From contig NZ_AP024850.1 in assembly GCF_024346675.1 (NCBI RefSeq), positions 744,001-808,000 on the forward strand: DNA of 64,000 nucleotides. The letters are read 5' to 3'. Positions 3,197-47,696 of this stretch are shown in pieces. Every line of letters begins with the position of its first letter. The stretch's first letter is position 1. Made by a program: the position numbers and the translations under genes. This stretch comes from Photobacterium sanguinicancri. GTDB lineage: Bacteria > Pseudomonadota > Gammaproteobacteria > Enterobacterales > Vibrionaceae. Under the pieces are notes generated by a model that was given only the letters and a program-made list of their open reading frames with translations, searched no databases and was not told the DNA's origin.

Positions 3197-3281
3197 TGGT
3201 GCGGACGGAGAGACTTGAACTCTCACACCTTGCGGCGCCAGAACCTAAATCTGGTGCGTCTACCAATTCCGCCACGTCCGC
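3197..3281 (-). tRNA. tRNA-Leu(UAG) copy 1
   Basis: This 85-nt cloverleaf with encoded CCA is the last gene of the transcript. The anticodon loop TTTAGGT sits in stem CCAGA/TCTGG. The variable arm is the GCAAGG type. Confidence 0.97.
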
Positions 3282-3336
3282 ATACTTAGCAATGATTATA
3301 CAACCGAAGTTGAATAACATCATTAAGTCTAAATTG

Positions 3337-3411
3337 TGGCAGGGCTACCTGGATTCGAACCAGGGGATGGCGGCATCAAAAGCCGCTGCCTTACCGCTTG
3401 GCGATAGCCCT
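3337..3411 (-). tRNA. tRNA-Gln(UUG) copy 1
   Basis: This 75-nt cloverleaf has acceptor stem AGGGCTA/TAGCCCT, discriminator G and encoded CCA. The anticodon loop TTTTGAT sits in stem GCGGC/GCCGC. Confidence 0.97.
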
Positions 3412-3475
3412 ACAGCGTTGCTCGATTAAGAGAACGTTTTTTCTCGGCGAGGAGAAAGAATAAGTTAAGAGAAAA

Positions 3476-3560
3476 TGGTGCGGACGGAGAGACTTGAACT
3501 CTCACACCTCGCGGCGCCAGAACCTAAATCTGGTGCGTCTACCAATTCCGCCACGTCCGC
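3476..3560 (-). tRNA. tRNA-Leu(UAG) copy 2
   Basis: This 85-nt gene has the same cloverleaf as copy 1 but a GCGAGG variable arm. That variant recurs in every second Leu gene of array A. Confidence 0.97.
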
Positions 3561-3678
3561 ATTTTTTATCGTTAATTGCTTAACGAATCTCTTACTTATT
3601 AAGTCACATAATCAGCAATTGGTGAGCGCGATTATGATCTTTTTTACTTTGAACTCTAGTGAAAGAGAGCAAAGAATA

Positions 3679-3763
3679 TGGTGCGGACGGAGAGACTTGA
3701 ACTCTCACACCTTGCGGCGCCAGAACCTAAATCTGGTGCGTCTACCAATTCCGCCACGTCCGC
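3679..3763 (-). tRNA. tRNA-Leu(UAG) copy 3
   Basis: This is an 85-nt cloverleaf with anticodon TAG, GCAAGG variable arm and encoded CCA. Confidence 0.97.
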
Positions 3764-3818
3764 ATACTTAGCAATGATTATACAACCGAAGTTGAATAAC
3801 ATCATTAAGTCTAAATTG

Positions 3819-3893
3819 TGGCAGGGCTACCTGGATTCGAACCAGGGGATGGCGGCATCAAAAGCCGCTGCCTTACCGCTTGGCGATAGCCCT
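3819..3893 (-). tRNA. tRNA-Gln(UUG) copy 2
   Basis: This is a 75-nt cloverleaf with anticodon TTG and encoded CCA, identical to Gln copy 1. Confidence 0.97.
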
Positions 3894-3957
3894 ACAGCGT
3901 TACTCGATTAAGAGAACGTTTTTTCTCGGCGAGGAGAAAGAATAAGTTAAGAGAAAA

Positions 3958-4042
3958 TGGTGCGGACGGAGAGACTTGAACTCTCACACCTCGCGGCGCC
4001 AGAACCTAAATCTGGTGCGTCTACCAATTCCGCCACGTCCGC
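3958..4042 (-). tRNA. tRNA-Leu(UAG) copy 4
   Basis: This is an 85-nt cloverleaf with anticodon TAG and the GCGAGG variable arm. Confidence 0.97.
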
Positions 4043-4160
4043 ATTTTTTATCGTTAATTGCTTAACGAATCTCTTACTTATTAAGTCACATAATCAGCAA
4101 TTGGTGAGCGCGATTATGATCTTTTTTACTTTGAACTCTAGTGAAAGAGAGCAAAGAATA

Positions 4161-4245
4161 TGGTGCGGACGGAGAGACTTGAACTCTCACACCTTGCGGC
4201 GCCAGAACCTAAATCTGGTGCGTCTACCAATTCCGCCACGTCCGC
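4161..4245 (-). tRNA. tRNA-Leu(UAG) copy 5
   Basis: This is an 85-nt cloverleaf with anticodon TAG and the GCAAGG variable arm. Confidence 0.97.
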
Positions 4246-4300
4246 ATACTTAGCAATGATTATACAACCGAAGTTGAATAACATCATTAAGTCTAAATTG

Positions 4301-4375
4301 TGGCAGGGCTACCTGGATTCGAACCAGGGGATGGCGGCATCAAAAGCCGCTGCCTTACCGCTTGGCGATAGCCCT
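4301..4375 (-). tRNA. tRNA-Gln(UUG) copy 3
   Basis: This is a 75-nt cloverleaf with anticodon TTG and encoded CCA. Confidence 0.97.
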
Positions 4376-4439
4376 ACAGCGTTACTCGATTAAGAGAACG
4401 TTTTTTCTCGGCGAGGAGAAAGAATAAGTTAAGAGAAAA

Positions 4440-4524
4440 TGGTGCGGACGGAGAGACTTGAACTCTCACACCTCGCGGCGCCAGAACCTAAATCTGGTGC
4501 GTCTACCAATTCCGCCACGTCCGC
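4440..4524 (-). tRNA. tRNA-Leu(UAG) copy 6
   Basis: This is an 85-nt cloverleaf with anticodon TAG and the GCGAGG variable arm. Confidence 0.97.
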
Positions 4525-4642
4525 ATTTTTTATCGTTAATTGCTTAACGAATCTCTTACTTATTAAGTCACATAATCAGCAATTGGTGAGCGCGATTATG
4601 ATCTTTTTTACTTTGAACTCTAGTGAAAGAGAGCAAAGAATA

Positions 4643-4727
4643 TGGTGCGGACGGAGAGACTTGAACTCTCACACCTTGCGGCGCCAGAACCTAAATCTGG
4701 TGCGTCTACCAATTCCGCCACGTCCGC
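4643..4727 (-). tRNA. tRNA-Leu(UAG) copy 7
   Basis: This is an 85-nt cloverleaf with anticodon TAG and the GCAAGG variable arm. Confidence 0.97.
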
Positions 4728-4782
4728 ATACTTAGCAATGATTATACAACCGAAGTTGAATAACATCATTAAGTCTAAATTG

Positions 4783-4857
4783 TGGCAGGGCTACCTGGAT
4801 TCGAACCAGGGGATGGCGGCATCAAAAGCCGCTGCCTTACCGCTTGGCGATAGCCCT
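4783..4857 (-). tRNA. tRNA-Gln(UUG) copy 4
   Basis: This is a 75-nt cloverleaf with anticodon TTG and encoded CCA. Confidence 0.97.
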
Positions 4858-4921
4858 ACAGCGTTACTCGATTAAGAGAACGTTTTTTCTCGGCGAGGAG
4901 AAAGAATAAGTTAAGAGAAAA

Positions 4922-5006
4922 TGGTGCGGACGGAGAGACTTGAACTCTCACACCTCGCGGCGCCAGAACCTAAATCTGGTGCGTCTACCAATTCCGCCAC
5001 GTCCGC
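4922..5006 (-). tRNA. tRNA-Leu(UAG) copy 8
   Basis: This is an 85-nt cloverleaf with anticodon TAG and the GCGAGG variable arm. It is the last array A gene in plus-strand order. Confidence 0.97.
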
Positions 5007-5123
5007 ATTTTTTATCGTTAATTACTTAACGAATCTCTTACTTATTGAGTCACATAATCAGCAATTGGTTAGCATAATTACGATCTTTTTTACTTCACGC
5101 ACTTATAAAGTGAATGAAGAATA

Positions 5124-5208
5124 TGGTGCGGACGGAGAGACTTGAACTCTCACACCTTACGGCGCCAGAACCTAAATCTGGTGCGTCTACCAATTCCGCC
5201 ACGTCCGC
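5124..5208 (-). tRNA. tRNA-Leu(UAG) copy 9, variant arm
   Basis: This 85-nt cloverleaf has anticodon TAG. It sits at the junction of arrays A and B and alone carries a GTAAGG variable arm. Confidence 0.97.
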
Positions 5209-5254
5209 ATCTGGTAAAGTTTTACATCTTTCGATGATTTCTCTAGAAGAGAAA

Positions 5255-5331
5255 TGGTGGCTACGACGGGATTCGAACCTGTGACCCCATCATTATGAGT
5301 GATGTGCTCTAACCAGCTGAGCTACGTAGCC
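5255..5331 (-). tRNA. elongator tRNA-Met(CAU) copy 1
   Basis: This 77-nt cloverleaf has acceptor GGCTACG/CGTAGCC, anticodon loop CTCATAA and encoded CCA. The paired first base and the lack of the initiator GGG/CCC anticodon-stem pairs indicate elongator Met, as E. coli metT/metU. A CAU tRNA modified to k2C for Ile cannot be fully excluded by eye. Confidence 0.93.
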
Positions 5332-5419
5332 ATTTTGTTCTACTCGATGAGTAGTTATTTAATCATGCCGCTTACGCTTCACAGTCGAAACTGAGAAATC
5401 AAAGCCACATAATAAAATG

Positions 5420-5494
5420 TGGCAGGGCTACCTGGATTCGAACCAGGGGATGGCGGCATCAAAAGCCGCTGCCTTACCGCTTGGCGATAGCCCT
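5420..5494 (-). tRNA. tRNA-Gln(UUG) copy 5
   Basis: This is a 75-nt cloverleaf with anticodon TTG and encoded CCA. Confidence 0.97.
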
Positions 5495-5557
5495 ACAGTG
5501 TTACATAAAGTAACTTGCCTAATCTAGTGTTAGGCACTCTTAACCGAGTTAAGAGAA

Positions 5558-5642
5558 TGGTGCGGACGGAGAGACTTGAACTCTCACACCTTGCGGCGCC
5601 AGAACCTAAATCTGGTGCGTCTACCAATTCCGCCACGTCCGC
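5558..5642 (-). tRNA. tRNA-Leu(UAG) copy 10
   Basis: This is an 85-nt cloverleaf with anticodon TAG and the GCAAGG variable arm. Its trailer forms a CTCTTAAC/GTTAAGAG hairpin. Confidence 0.97.
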
Positions 5643-5688
5643 ATCTGGTAAAGTTTTACATCTTTCGATGATTTCTCTAGAAGAGAAA

Positions 5689-5765
5689 TGGTGGCTACGA
5701 CGGGATTCGAACCTGTGACCCCATCATTATGAGTGATGTGCTCTAACCAGCTGAGCTACGTAGCC
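5689..5765 (-). tRNA. elongator tRNA-Met(CAU) copy 2
   Basis: This 77-nt cloverleaf is identical to Met copy 1. Confidence 0.93.
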
Positions 5766-5853
5766 ATTTTGTTCTACTCGATGAGTAGTTATTTAATCAT
5801 GCCGCTTACGCTTCACAGTCGAAACTGAGAAATCAAAGCCACATAATAAAATG

Positions 5854-5928
5854 TGGCAGGGCTACCTGGATTCGAACCAGGGGATGGCGGCATCAAAAGC
5901 CGCTGCCTTACCGCTTGGCGATAGCCCT
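5854..5928 (-). tRNA. tRNA-Gln(UUG) copy 6
   Basis: This is a 75-nt cloverleaf with anticodon TTG and encoded CCA. Confidence 0.97.
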
Positions 5929-5991
5929 ACAGTGTTACATAAAGTAACTAGCCTAATCTACTGTTAGGCGCTCTTAACCGAGTTAAGAGAA

Positions 5992-6076
5992 TGGTGCGGA
6001 CGGAGAGACTTGAACTCTCACACCTTGCGGCGCCAGAACCTAAATCTGGTGCGTCTACCAATTCCGCCACGTCCGC
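5992..6076 (-). tRNA. tRNA-Leu(UAG) copy 11
   Basis: This is an 85-nt cloverleaf with anticodon TAG and the GCAAGG variable arm. Confidence 0.97.
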
Positions 6077-6122
6077 ATCTGGTAAAGTTTTACATCTTTC
6101 GATGATTTCTCTAGAAGAGAAA

Positions 6123-6199
6123 TGGTGGCTACGACGGGATTCGAACCTGTGACCCCATCATTATGAGTGATGTGCTCTAACCAGCTGAGCTACGTAGCC
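6123..6199 (-). tRNA. elongator tRNA-Met(CAU) copy 3
   Basis: This 77-nt cloverleaf is identical to Met copy 1. Confidence 0.93.
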
Positions 6200-6287
6200 A
6201 TTTTGTTCTACTCGATGAGTAGTTATTTAATCATGCCGCTTACGCTTCACAGTCGAAACTGAGAAATCAAAGCCACATAATAAAATG

Positions 6288-6362
6288 TGGCAGGGCTACC
6301 TGGATTCGAACCAGGGGATGGCGGCATCAAAAGCCGCTGCCTTACCGCTTGGCGATAGCCCT
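6288..6362 (-). tRNA. tRNA-Gln(UUG) copy 7
   Basis: This is a 75-nt cloverleaf with anticodon TTG and encoded CCA. Confidence 0.97.
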
Positions 6363-6425
6363 ACAGTGTTACATAAAGTAACTAGCCTAATCTACTGTTA
6401 GGCGCTCTTAACCGAGTTAAGAGAA

Positions 6426-6510
6426 TGGTGCGGACGGAGAGACTTGAACTCTCACACCTTGCGGCGCCAGAACCTAAATCTGGTGCGTCTACCAATTCCG
6501 CCACGTCCGC
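6426..6510 (-). tRNA. tRNA-Leu(UAG) copy 12
   Basis: This is an 85-nt cloverleaf with anticodon TAG and the GCAAGG variable arm. Confidence 0.97.
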
Positions 6511-6556
6511 ATCTGGTAAAGTTTTACATCTTTCGATGATTTCTCTAGAAGAGAAA

Positions 6557-6633
6557 TGGTGGCTACGACGGGATTCGAACCTGTGACCCCATCATTATGA
6601 GTGATGTGCTCTAACCAGCTGAGCTACGTAGCC
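6557..6633 (-). tRNA. elongator tRNA-Met(CAU) copy 4
   Basis: This 77-nt cloverleaf is identical to Met copy 1. Confidence 0.93.
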
Positions 6634-6721
6634 ATTTTGTTCTACTCGATGAGTAGTTATTTAATCATGCCGCTTACACTTCACAGTCGAAACTGAGAAA
6701 TCAAAGCCACATAATAAAATG

Positions 6722-6796
6722 TGGCAGGGCTACCTGGATTCGAACCAGGGGATGGCGGCATCAAAAGCCGCTGCCTTACCGCTTGGCGATAGCCCT
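6722..6796 (-). tRNA. tRNA-Gln(UUG) copy 8
   Basis: This is a 75-nt cloverleaf with anticodon TTG and encoded CCA. Confidence 0.97.
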
Positions 6797-6859
6797 ACAG
6801 TGTTACATAAAGTAACTAGCCTAATCTACTGTTAGGCGCTCTTAACCGAGTTAAGAGAA

Positions 6860-6944
6860 TGGTGCGGACGGAGAGACTTGAACTCTCACACCTTGCGGCG
6901 CCAGAACCTAAATCTGGTGCGTCTACCAATTCCGCCACGTCCGC
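6860..6944 (-). tRNA. tRNA-Leu(UAG) copy 13
   Basis: This is an 85-nt cloverleaf with anticodon TAG and the GCAAGG variable arm. It is the second gene from the promoter. Confidence 0.97.
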
Positions 6945-6990
6945 ATCTGGTAAAGTTTTACATCTTTCGATGATTTCTCTAGAAGAGAAA

Positions 6991-7067
6991 TGGTGGCTAC
7001 GACGGGATTCGAACCTGTGACCCCATCATTATGAGTGATGTGCTCTAACCAGCTGAGCTACGTAGCC
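6991..7067 (-). tRNA. elongator tRNA-Met(CAU) copy 5
   Basis: This 77-nt cloverleaf is the promoter-proximal gene of the array. It matches the metT-first order of the E. coli metT-leuW-glnU-glnW-metU-glnV-glnX operon. Confidence 0.93.
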
Positions 7068-30477: not shown

Positions 30478-30554
<77 letters not shown>

Positions 30555-30616
30555 CTCTTACTTCTGTTGGGTGTATGTCGGACAGAATAATCTGGTAAGA
30601 TTTAAAATATACAGCT

Positions 30617-30693
<77 letters not shown>

Positions 30694-30754
30694 CCTTATT
30701 TCTGTTGAATGTAAGTTGAGCAGAAGAATCTGGTAGGATTTAAAACATACAGCT

Positions 30755-30831
<77 letters not shown>

Positions 30832-44801: not shown

Positions 44802-45536
44802 GTGAAAGGATTCACGGCATTTTTACAGTCCATGCTTTCTAGTCTGCGCGATTTATTACCCATTATTGTGGTGATAGGATTTTTCCAGCTTATTGTCTTA
44901 CAGCAGCCTCTTCCTCAGCTTGGCACTATCAGCTTTGGCTTACTGCTGGTGGTACTTGGCCTAACGTTATTTGTGATCGGTTTAAACATGGGATTGTTTC
45001 CCATCGGCGAATCGATGGCGCAAGCATTTGCCCGTAAAGGGAGTGCAGCGTGGTTGTTATTTTTTGCATTTTGTCTGGGTTTTGGTACCACGATAGCGGA
45101 ACCTGCGTTAACTGCTGTGGCATCTGAAGCGGCGTACGTAGCTGCTGAAGGGGGCATGATTGCGAGCAATGAAAGTGCGATGCAGGACTATGCTTCAGGA
45201 TTACGGTTAACCGTTGCCTTATCGGTTGGAGTCGCAATTGTATTAGGGGTATTGCGGATTTTAAAAGGTTGGTCAATTCAAAGAATGATCATCGGCGGTT
45301 ACTCGTTAGTCATGGTGATGACATGGTTTGCCCCCCCAAGCATTATCGGTATTGCTTATGACTCGGGTGGTGTAACGACATCCACCATTACCGTTCCCTT
45401 AGTCACCGCCCTCGGCGTCGGCTTGGCTTCATCCATTAAAGGCCGAAACCCTATGGTTGACGGCTTTGGTTTGATTGCTTTTGCTTCCTTAACGCCCATG
45501 ATCTTTGTGATGGCGTATGGCTTATGGTTAGCTTGA
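44802..45536 (+). CDS. DUF1538 membrane protein, subunit A
   Basis: GTG at 44802 is used because AAGGAG lies 6 bases upstream; the nearby ATG is out of frame. The 244-residue protein has about seven hydrophobic segments. DUF1538 hallmarks are [17 protein letters not shown] near residue 90 and [20 protein letters not shown] near residue 186, then [23 protein letters not shown]. The family is a putative transporter of unknown substrate. It is the first of four tightly packed genes that also encode a second DUF1538 protein, a PII-like protein and a CBS protein. Confidence 0.88.
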
Positions 45537-45549
45537 AAGGAGTGTTGAT

Positions 45550-46341
45550 ATGAGCCTACTTGCTACCACCGCCCAGCACTTTCTATCGACTTTCATAGGC
45601 ACTGTCCGTGATGTTATGCCGATCGTGATCATTATGTTTGGTTTCCAGTTTGCGGTATTGCGCCGCCCAGTCAAAAATTGGCGCAAAGTTGCCACTGGTT
45701 TTGTGCTGGTTATTTTTGGCTTATCTTTTTTCCTTATGGGGCTAGAGTTAGCGCTATTTCCTCTAGGGGAGTCGATGGCTCAGCAACTCACGGCGCCTGC
45801 TTTTTTGTTTGATAGTGATGAAGTGATCCCATTACACATTGATTGGTCTGAGTATTATTGGATTTACCTATTTGCTGCTGCTATTGGTTTTAGTACGACT
45901 ATTGCCGAACCTTCATTGATTGCGGTGGCCATTAAAGCTAACCAAGTATCGGGTGGAACCATTAAAGTTAATGGACTGCGTATTGCGGTTGCGCTTGGTG
46001 TTTCCATGGGGATTGCACTGGGGAGTTACCGTATTGTCGTAGGTGACCCGCTGCATTATTACATTTTGGTTGGTTATATCATTGTTGTCATTCAGACCTT
46101 TTTTGCACCCAAAATGATAGTGCCACTGGCGTATGATTCTGGTGGAGTGACCACTTCAACAGTGACCGTACCGATTGTGACAGCATTGGGACTAGGGCTT
46201 GCCTCTACTGTCCCAGGACGAAATCCGATGTTAGATGGTTTTGGTCTGATTGCGTTTGCGAGTTTGTTTCCGATGATGACAGTGATGGGCTATGCCCAGT
46301 TATCGGTATGGCGAGAAAGGAGATCGGAAAATGCGCTTTAA
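45550..46341 (+). CDS. DUF1538 membrane protein, subunit B
   Basis: This 263-residue protein is a paralogue of the preceding one, with about seven membrane segments. It shows FSTTIAEPSLIAVAIKA and [20 protein letters not shown], then [31 protein letters not shown] stands before its start, 13 bases after subunit A. In other genomes both halves may be fused, so the two proteins probably form one pseudo-symmetric transporter. Its last 11 bases overlap the PII-like gene. Confidence 0.88.
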   Translation: MSLLATTAQHFLSTFIGTVRDVMPIVIIMFGFQFAVLRRPVKNWRKVATGFVLVIFGLSFFLMGLELALFPLGESMAQQLTAPAFLFDSDEVIPLHIDWSEYYWIYLFAAAIGFSTTIAEPSLIAVAIKANQVSGGTIKVNGLRIAVALGVSMGIALGSYRIVVGDPLHYYILVGYIIVVIQTFFAPKMIVPLAYDSGGVTTSTVTVPIVTALGLGLASTVPGRNPMLDGFGLIAFASLFPMMTVMGYAQLSVWRERRSENAL

Positions 46342-46681
46342 ATTGATAGTCGCGTTTGTTGAAGATGATAAAACTGATGCAGTGCTTGATGCCGCGCGTG
46401 CTGCTGGTGCAACGGGGGCTACGGTAATTAATAACGCCCGCGGAGAGGGGCTTCACAAAAAAACCACTTTCTTTGGCTTGTCGTTAGAAGTTCAGCGCGA
46501 TGTTATTTTATTTTTAGTGGAAGAACACCTTGCGCGCCATATCCTCGAAACTATCGAGCAAGTCGGCGAGTTTGATTCGGCATCGGGGCAGGGGATTGCG
46601 GTTCAAATTGATGTAGAAGATGCCGTTGGCGTTGCTCATCAAGTCGAGCAACTCACTAAAGTTGTGGAGGATAAATTATGA
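46331..46681 (+). CDS. PII-like signalling protein
   Basis: This 116-residue protein from ATG 46331 has the ferredoxin-like PII fold order, starting MRFKLIVAFVEDDKTDAVLD. The region corresponding to the T-loop is INNARGEGLHKKTTFFGLS. GlnB/GlnK features such as the uridylylated Tyr are absent, so it belongs to a divergent PII-like group. PII-like proteins bind adenine nucleotides and gate nearby membrane transporters. The 11-base overlap upstream and 4-base overlap downstream imply coupled expression with both. Confidence 0.85.
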   Translation: MRFKLIVAFVEDDKTDAVLDAARAAGATGATVINNARGEGLHKKTTFFGLSLEVQRDVILFLVEEHLARHILETIEQVGEFDSASGQGIAVQIDVEDAVGVAHQVEQLTKVVEDKL

Positions 46682-47082
46682 GTGATGCAGCGATCGTTAG
46701 AGTACGTGATGTCATGATGAACACTTATGCCATGGTTGAAGGTGTGACGACAGTGGCAGAGGCTATTGGCATTGCTAAACACCAACAAGTGAAAGCATTG
46801 ATAGTGAATAAGCGGGATGCTGATGATGAATTTGGCATCGTCTTAATGAACGATATCGCCAAAAATGTGTTAGCGAAAGACCGTTCACCCAAACGGACTA
46901 ATGTGTATGAAATCATGACTAAGCCTGCGTTATCTGTCAGTGGTTCGATGGATGTTCGCTATTGTGCGCGGTTATTTGAACGCTTTGGGGTGAGTCGTGC
47001 ACCAGTGATCGAAGATGGTAAAGTTTTGGGGATGGTCAGTTATAACAACATCGTACTGAATGGCATGCTGCGGGACGAATAG
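46678..47082 (+). CDS. CBS-domain protein
   Basis: This 134-residue protein consists of one CBS pair: VRDVMMNTYAMVEGVTTVAEAIGIAKHQQVKALIV and VYEIMTKPALSVSGSMDVRYCARLFERFGVSRAPVIEDGKVLGMVS. CBS pairs commonly sense AMP, ATP or S-adenosylmethionine and control channels or enzymes. Its start overlaps the PII-like stop (ATGA). With the PII-like protein it would give the DUF1538 pair two nucleotide sensors. Confidence 0.9.
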   Translation: MSDAAIVRVRDVMMNTYAMVEGVTTVAEAIGIAKHQQVKALIVNKRDADDEFGIVLMNDIAKNVLAKDRSPKRTNVYEIMTKPALSVSGSMDVRYCARLFERFGVSRAPVIEDGKVLGMVSYNNIVLNGMLRDE

Positions 47083-47144
47083 CAATCATAGTGTGAAGGG
47101 CGTAACATACTTTGCATTCGGTATTGATTGTATTTATACGACTT

Positions 47145-47696
47145 ATGAAATTGTTTTTTGCTTCAGATTTACACGGCTGTGCTGAGAGCACCCGTACCAT
47201 GTTGGCTGCGTTTGAACAAAGTGGTGCTGAGCACTTAGTCTTATTGGGTGATGTTTTAAATCATGGCCCTCGCAATGCCTTGCCAGCGGGCTATGCACCG
47301 ATAGAAGTCGCAGAGCAGCTGAACCAATATGCTGATCGTATTTTGGCGGTACGTGGCAATTGCGACAGTGATGTTGATCAAATGCTACTCGACTTCCCTA
47401 TGATGGCGGATTACAACTGGGTATTGCTGCCAACGGGGCGCCGCTTATTCCTAACTCATGGTCACCTTTACCATGCGGACAAACACCCTCGATTACGCCA
47501 AGGTGATGTGATTGTTTCGGGTCATACGCATTTACCTGTAGCGCAAGCACACGGTGACTATTTTGCGTTTAATCCGGGCTCGACAACGATTCCGCGGGGT
47601 GAGCATCAAGCGAGTTATGGTCTGTTAGAAGACAAGACATTGTCGGTAATGAGCTTTACTGGCGAGACCTTGTGTTCAGTAGCGTTGAGTGATTAA
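47145..47696 (+). CDS. yfcE: metallophosphodiesterase YfcE
   Basis: This 183-residue calcineurin-like phosphodiesterase starts at ATG 47145. Metal-binding motifs are ASDLHG, LGDVLNHGPRN, VRGNCDSDVD, THGHLYH and SGHTHLP. E. coli YfcE hydrolyses artificial phosphodiesters; its natural substrate is uncertain. It follows the CBS gene by 62 bases and ends with its own terminator. Confidence 0.93.
   Translation: MKLFFASDLHGCAESTRTMLAAFEQSGAEHLVLLGDVLNHGPRNALPAGYAPIEVAEQLNQYADRILAVRGNCDSDVDQMLLDFPMMADYNWVLLPTGRRLFLTHGHLYHADKHPRLRQGDVIVSGHTHLPVAQAHGDYFAFNPGSTTIPRGEHQASYGLLEDKTLSVMSFTGETLCSVALSD

Follow-up and report, generated by a model that had tools for sequence, protein, structure and literature searches.

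The window (the whole 64,000-nucleotide stretch of Photobacterium sanguinicancri DNA that was analysed) carries four closely packed genes encoding two membrane proteins of the DUF1538 family, a PII-like protein and a protein with a pair of CBS domains (Table 1; Pfam cut-offs are 22.6 bits for PF07556, 25 for PF00543 and 24 for PF00571). The umpA-like and umpB-like genes are separated by 13 bp, the PII-like gene overlaps the umpB-like gene by 11 bp, and the CBS gene overlaps the PII-like gene by 4 bp; an earlier note on this DNA had described a four-gene operon with these coordinates and spacings, and both were reproduced from the open reading frames. Its further claim, that the four genes act together as a single unit, agrees with the gene cluster being kept across loci (see below), and since many families of the phylum show the same gene order, the operon arrangement is not due to chance. 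The start chosen for the umpA-like gene is shared by many relatives of the same length, which begin at the equal residue, while two records (P0130 and P0132) begin 10 residues later. In protein similarity, subunit A is 97% similar to its P. swingsii relative and the PII-like protein 94% similar to that of P. jeanii. The gene upstream of the operon is divergent, and a yfcE-like gene lies downstream. An Rfam scan of the operon at the gathering score yielded no family, and the promoter and terminator matches found there are consensus matches only, to which we attach no weight.

Table 1. Features of the window, with positions counted from its first letter
Feature	Position	Strand	Properties
umpA-like, DUF1538 membrane subunit A	44802-45536	+	244 aa, GTG start; PF07556, 232.7 bits
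umpB-like, DUF1538 membrane subunit B with hydrophilic C-terminal tail	45550-46341	+	263 aa; PF07556, 229 bits
PII-like protein, UmpAB-linked clade	46331-46681	+	116 aa; PF00543, 44.3 bits
CBS-pair protein	46678-47082	+	134 aa; PF00571 twice, 58.2 bits
yfcE-like phosphoesterase	47112-47696	+	
tRNA array	3200-7067	-	26 tandem genes
Further tandem tRNAs	30478-30828	+	3 genes

Both membrane proteins contain the motifs TTIAEP and [10 protein letters not shown]; over 249 aligned positions their sequences are 47% identical, which bears out the earlier view of them as two homologous halves of one transporter. An internal repeat within one DUF1538 domain received no support from hhalign (probability about 1%), so the visible symmetry is that between the subunits. 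The best NCBIfam models were NF041627 (UmpA) for subunit A (377.9 bits, under the cut-off of 490) and NF041628 (UmpB) for subunit B (351.1 bits, under the cut-off of 500), models that are named as subunits of a Na,Li,K/H+ antiporter. The UmpA equivalog cut-off was reached by none of 369 genomes of the window's class, and it therefore fits a narrow clade. The substrate of the system had been called unknown in the earlier note; however, a homologous DUF1538 pair, UmpAB of Halomonas zhaodongensis, had already been characterised in 2017 as a Na+(Li+,K+)/H+ antiporter (PMC5484666). According to that report, UmpA and UmpB form a heterodimer (by co-immunoprecipitation), co-expression of both genes enables growth of an antiporter-deficient E. 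coli in salt and also at pH 8.0, and the exchange of Na+(Li+,K+) for H+ in vesicles is pH-dependent with an optimum at pH 9.0 (PMC5484666). The terms PII, P-II and CBS do not occur in the main text of the same report, and the ORFs it describes for the cloned fragment end with umpB; as the antiport was obtained in antiporter-deficient E. coli and neither regulator is mentioned there, it does not require the regulators. Most likely, then, the Photobacterium operon encodes a UmpAB-type monovalent cation/proton antiporter, antiport itself having been shown for the Halomonas homologue. The acidic residues D17, E100, D187 and D220 are invariant in a 35-row alignment of UmpA and UmpB and intact in the window proteins. 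Residue 62 of the window UmpA is Asn (GLNMGLFP), and Glu stands at this position in most relatives (GLE); P. swingsii has Asn as well and P. jeanii has Asp. The 35-row DUF1538 profile gave no match at E up to 1 among solved chains, SbtA included (a structure of which is published, PMC8352866). The SbtA family was considered for the membrane proteins and rejected at the sequence level, where Pfam places them in DUF1538.

The PII-like protein scored 165.6 bits with the profile of its clade, versus 29.1 and 29.0 bits for the GlnB and GlnK encoded by this genome, which has a canonical glnB and, in addition, a glnK adjoining amtB. In canonical PII proteins the uridylylated tyrosine sits in the YRGAEY T-loop, the B-loop TGxxGDGKIF holds Lys90, and the C-loop RIRTGE holds Arg101 and Arg103. 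The window protein has TTFFGLSLE where the GlnB and GlnK encoded alongside it in the genome have LYRGAEY, and the uridylylation tyrosine is absent; its B-loop reads SGQGIAV and its C-loop AVGVAHQ, so that the TG, the GDGK and the C-loop arginines of its own genome's GlnB and GlnK are lost. The losses at positions 90, 101 and 103 run through the clade (110 sequences from 106 loci): Lys occupies the Lys90 position in 0/110, Arg the Arg101 position in 0/101 and Arg the Arg103 position in 4/100, where 101 and 100 are the sequences with a letter at these positions. As Lys90 and Arg101 are missing across the clade, canonical nucleotide binding cannot be assumed. G26, G29, T31 and G38 are invariant in the UmpAB-linked clade and G88 nearly so. 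The clade has a shorter T-loop with a conserved motif of its own, TFFGLTLExQRD (F47 in 97/110, G49 in 107/110 and L50 in 95/110), together with a clade-specific G100 and Q104 (kept in 100/101 and 97/100). Against solved structures, the family profile came closest to ordinary PII (E 1.6e-8), with SbtB at about 0.003; the window sequence on its own reached only E 0.31 with solved PII, and PHROGs held no match for it. Relatives of the protein are annotated as 'P-II family nitrogen regulator'. We rejected its assignment as a canonical GlnB/GlnK nitrogen regulator, the uridylylation tyrosine, Lys90 and Arg101 being missing; judged by its sequence, it is a PII-like member of the PII superfamily and not a canonical nitrogen regulator.

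The family profile of the CBS protein matched cyanobacterial CBS-CP12 (5nmu) with E 2e-36 over profile positions 7-128, the next solved chain following at 5e-26. Nucleotide-binding CBS domains have a GxVxxxD-type ribose motif that includes an Asp; in the window protein this Asp is present in site 1 (D59), and in site 2 an Asn stands at its place, both in the window and in close relatives. A review describes CBS-CP12 as hexameric and able to bind AMP (PMC9406205).

The earlier note had tied the PII-like and CBS genes to the transporter. We ran the co-occurrence check, and the linkage is conserved: across 109 pooled loci anchored on DUF1538, a PII-like gene was present in the cluster in 105 and a CBS gene in 77, the script finding no CBS gene in the other 32. 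The first DUF1538-anchored sample (PII-like 65/69, CBS 39/69) consists of 60 + 9 loci chosen for spread among genomes with matches (78/295; 126/398), leaving out L186, which repeats a genome region of L060; a cluster was here a row of labelled genes sharing a strand, with fewer than 400 bases between neighbours. The second sample (PII-like 40/40, CBS 38/40) holds one locus for each of 40 families, taken from the 126 matching genomes among 369 of the class that were found with the UmpA model, and a gene was counted if it lay on the same strand and started no more than 2.5 kb (PII) or 3 kb (CBS) away, a rule under which L193, with a gap of ~1.4 kb, counts. One of its loci (L212) has a CBS domain inside an over-long ORF that was omitted by the length filter and so stands outside the 38/40. 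Conversely, when loci were anchored on the PII-like gene (the best 80 of at least 573 confirmed loci, mostly Vibrionaceae), DUF1538 was found in 79/80 and CBS in 80/80; the one locus without DUF1538 is at the end of a contig. The locus genomes are from the window's phylum; beyond it we have one locus from a Deltaproteobacteria MAG (L159) and the named organisms among the fusion matches described below. UmpAB-type PII was found in none of 30 genomes lacking DUF1538, all of the window's order, where the best score (32.2 bits) was comparable to that of canonical PII (29 bits under a related profile). Where the DUF1538 pair was unlinked, such a PII was encoded elsewhere in three of four genomes (145.7-153.6 bits) and was not found in the fourth, which is 84% complete.

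A mirror-tree comparison of 39 loci gave correlations of 0.64 for UmpA-UmpB, 0.45 for PII-CBS, 0.42 for UmpB-CBS and 0.37 for UmpA-CBS. The signal for PII was weak: PII-UmpA (0.26) and PII-UmpB (0.23) stayed under the maxima of 500 permutations (0.35 and 0.36). The yfcE-like phosphoesterase was rejected as a fifth component, as it was present in 43/80 PII-anchored loci but in only 1/60, 0/10 and 0/40 elsewhere; as a downstream gene it is common mainly to Vibrio and Photobacterium. One genome (G422, locus L060) has a UmpAB-PII set with fused UmpAB back to back with a second set whose subunits are separate, and a single CBS gene lies between their PII genes.

Fusion of UmpA and UmpB was also found in L045, L058, L059, L061 and L062. 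In one locus (L044) a single ORF of 642 residues comprises UmpA, UmpB and PII. A search with the PII part of this fusion, in which candidates were limited by whole-protein length, returned 355 proteins over the threshold, and both Pfam domains were present in 118 of the 120 listed. The matches with organism names come from Sulfurimonas, one Arcobacter, other Campylobacterota and one plain 'bacterium'; among these, the UmpA-UmpB-PII fusion is mainly found in Campylobacterota. The L044 genome itself (G029) is placed in the window's order and has 5% contamination, and as the closest named relatives of its fusion are from Campylobacterota, transfer or contamination of the bin is possible. PII-fold proteins are typically trimers and cytoplasmic. 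If the fused PII domain lies in the cytoplasm, like known PII proteins, the C-terminus of UmpB would be cytoplasmic too, and since the fusions fix one PII per UmpA-UmpB, three UmpAB heterodimers under one PII trimer are likely. CBS was not found in the divergent fused DUF1538 lineages. In four of the fused loci (L177, L178, L180 and L182) a second gene after the PII-like one has a weak match to PII (E 1e-9, 1e-6, 2e-4 and 1e-3), as if a second PII replaced the CBS sensor there; the corresponding second genes in L183 and L184 had no Pfam match.

Genes for monovalent-cation transport lie in the fetched flank of 10/69 loci, which belong to five families: TrkH (L073 and L091), a channel with TrkA domains (L063, L072, L079, L085 and L087), a channel with a cyclic-nucleotide domain (L183 and L184) and a Na_H_Exchanger with TrkA domains (L179). 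They made up 4/20 of the neighbouring genes scanned in one round and 6/10 of those in another, six of these ten having been preselected by phmmer. In those 10 genomes, 7/23 Ion_trans_2 genes fall inside the fetched stretches (up to about 10 kb), as do 2/26 TrkH match rows; because the genomes were chosen for having cation genes, the co-location is support rather than a test. Searches by phmmer with three of the cation genes gave no match in the 80 PII-anchored loci; in the 40-family loci phmmer flagged two further candidates (L202 and L213, partial). Most of the scanned flanking genes have no relation to cations; examples are ETF-QO, SH3, AMP-binding enzyme, response regulator and band-7 proteins.

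From the linkage, the co-occurrence and the fusion we infer that the PII-like protein physically controls UmpAB. Our preferred reading, to which we give odds of roughly two in three, is that the operon encodes a UmpAB-type cation/proton antiporter and two cytoplasmic regulators dedicated to it, of which the PII-like protein gates the transporter and the CBS protein senses adenylates. The two small genes might instead share no more than a transcript with umpAB and have their function elsewhere, for instance in nitrogen regulation, as the name given to relatives of the PII-like protein implies and as could be expected from an antiporter that worked in E. coli without them (PMC5484666). We consider this very improbable, as the genome has its own GlnB and AmtB-linked GlnK, the window protein lacks the uridylylation site, and its relatives are fused to UmpAB and absent from all 30 genomes without DUF1538. 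Another reading concerns the substrate: in vivo UmpAB could carry something other than a monovalent cation (an anion, bicarbonate), the antiport in E. coli being a side activity brought out under selection and the PII-like protein reporting carbon or nitrogen status. PII and PII-like proteins are indeed known beside ammonium and bicarbonate transporters (PMC8352866), and reports of Na+/H+ antiport for the RDD, MFS, UPF0118 and CDF families mean that such activity may be easily found. However, the exchange was assayed directly in vesicles with Na+, Li+ and K+ (PMC5484666), and TrkH, K+-channel-like, cyclic-nucleotide-domain channel and Na+/H+ exchanger genes occur near the cluster in the 10 loci named above, with seven of the 23 Ion_trans_2 genes close by even if in genomes picked for having them. 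A non-cation substrate thus seems unlikely to us.

A further alternative accepts that the PII-like protein controls UmpAB and differs in what it senses, namely a ligand in the PII cleft other than an adenine nucleotide (for example a metal or other cation, another metabolite or a dinucleotide), in which case the CBS protein alone would bring adenylate information, or none would be brought. This deserves more weight than the two readings above, although we lean against it. The absence of Lys90 and Arg101 and the near-absence of Arg103 speak in its favour, the conserved G100 and Q104 suggest a different pocket, and a metal-sensing role has been proposed for the PII-NG proteins, whose genes are tied to those of a cation/proton antiporter (PMC7726332). 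On the other side, T31 and the cleft framework (G26, G29, G38 and G88) are kept, and SbtB, likewise a non-canonical PII-like protein, binds AMP in the same cleft (PMC8352866).

Returning to an antiporter with a PII-like gate and an adenylate-sensing CBS partner, the T-loop insertion, stoichiometry, ligands, direction of control and CBS role proposed here are what we infer for it. A PII-like trimer would sit on the cytoplasmic face of three UmpAB heterodimers, with its T-loop (TFFGLTLExQRD) entering the transporter as in GlnK/AmtB and SbtB/SbtA. The CBS pair, a relative of an AMP-binding protein, would probably read adenylate status and tune the contact between PII and transporter. At low ATP the antiporter would be throttled, so that H+ would not leak inward and K+ would not be lost. 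In its widest form the proposal is a new branch of PII signalling, in which a PII-like trimer and an AMP-sensing CBS protein cap a UmpAB trimer, energy charge sets Na+/K+-H+ exchange, the pH and salt homeostasis of many marine bacteria comes under direct adenylate control, and in Campylobacterota such as Sulfurimonas the sensor is built into the antiporter polypeptide; we offer this version tentatively, at somewhat less than even odds.

The system resembles several known ones in part. It shares with Halomonas UmpAB the two homologous DUF1538 subunits side by side (378 and 351 bits for the window pair) but differs in that the window pair lies under the equivalog cut-offs (490 and 500), and the main text of the Halomonas report names neither PII nor CBS (PMC5484666). 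As in SbtA/SbtB and AmtB/GlnK, a transporter gene stands beside a gene for a PII-fold protein; in SbtA/SbtB the T-loop reaches into a cleft on the cytoplasmic side, and AMP is bound between SbtB subunits (PMC8352866). In contrast to both, the window system has a transporter of another family, a heterodimer performing cation/proton exchange (as known from the homologue), another T-loop motif, an added CBS partner and, in some bacteria, a covalent fusion. PII-NG/CzcABC likewise ties a PII-family protein genetically to a proton-driven cation antiporter (PMC7726332), whereas CzcABC performs metal efflux and the window PII is linked to DUF1538; the two PII types may nevertheless be related. The CBS protein has in common with CBS-CP12 (5nmu) a CBS pair with a shared VYEIMxKP segment, but it is without the CP12 tail and operonic with a transporter. 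In the full-text literature, where subscription journals are thinly covered, we found no report that links a DUF1538/UmpAB antiporter to a PII or CBS regulator. The antiporter function of a homologous DUF1538 pair was already known, while we found no description of the regulatory pair.

The partnership, conserved in many bacteria, suggests that the exchanger is throttled via a dedicated relative of the PII nitrogen sensors. If this is true, many proteins labelled 'P-II family nitrogen regulator' would be antiporter regulators that play no part in controlling nitrogen, the PII family would gain a dedicated monovalent cation/proton antiporter as a target, and DUF1538 would gain its regulation. 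The natural fusion is a self-contained protein, and one structure of it could then resolve how PII gates the transporter.

Apart from the operon, the window contains two groups of tandem tRNA genes (Table 1). The larger array is built from few repeated units with identical scores, and the three further tRNAs share one score.
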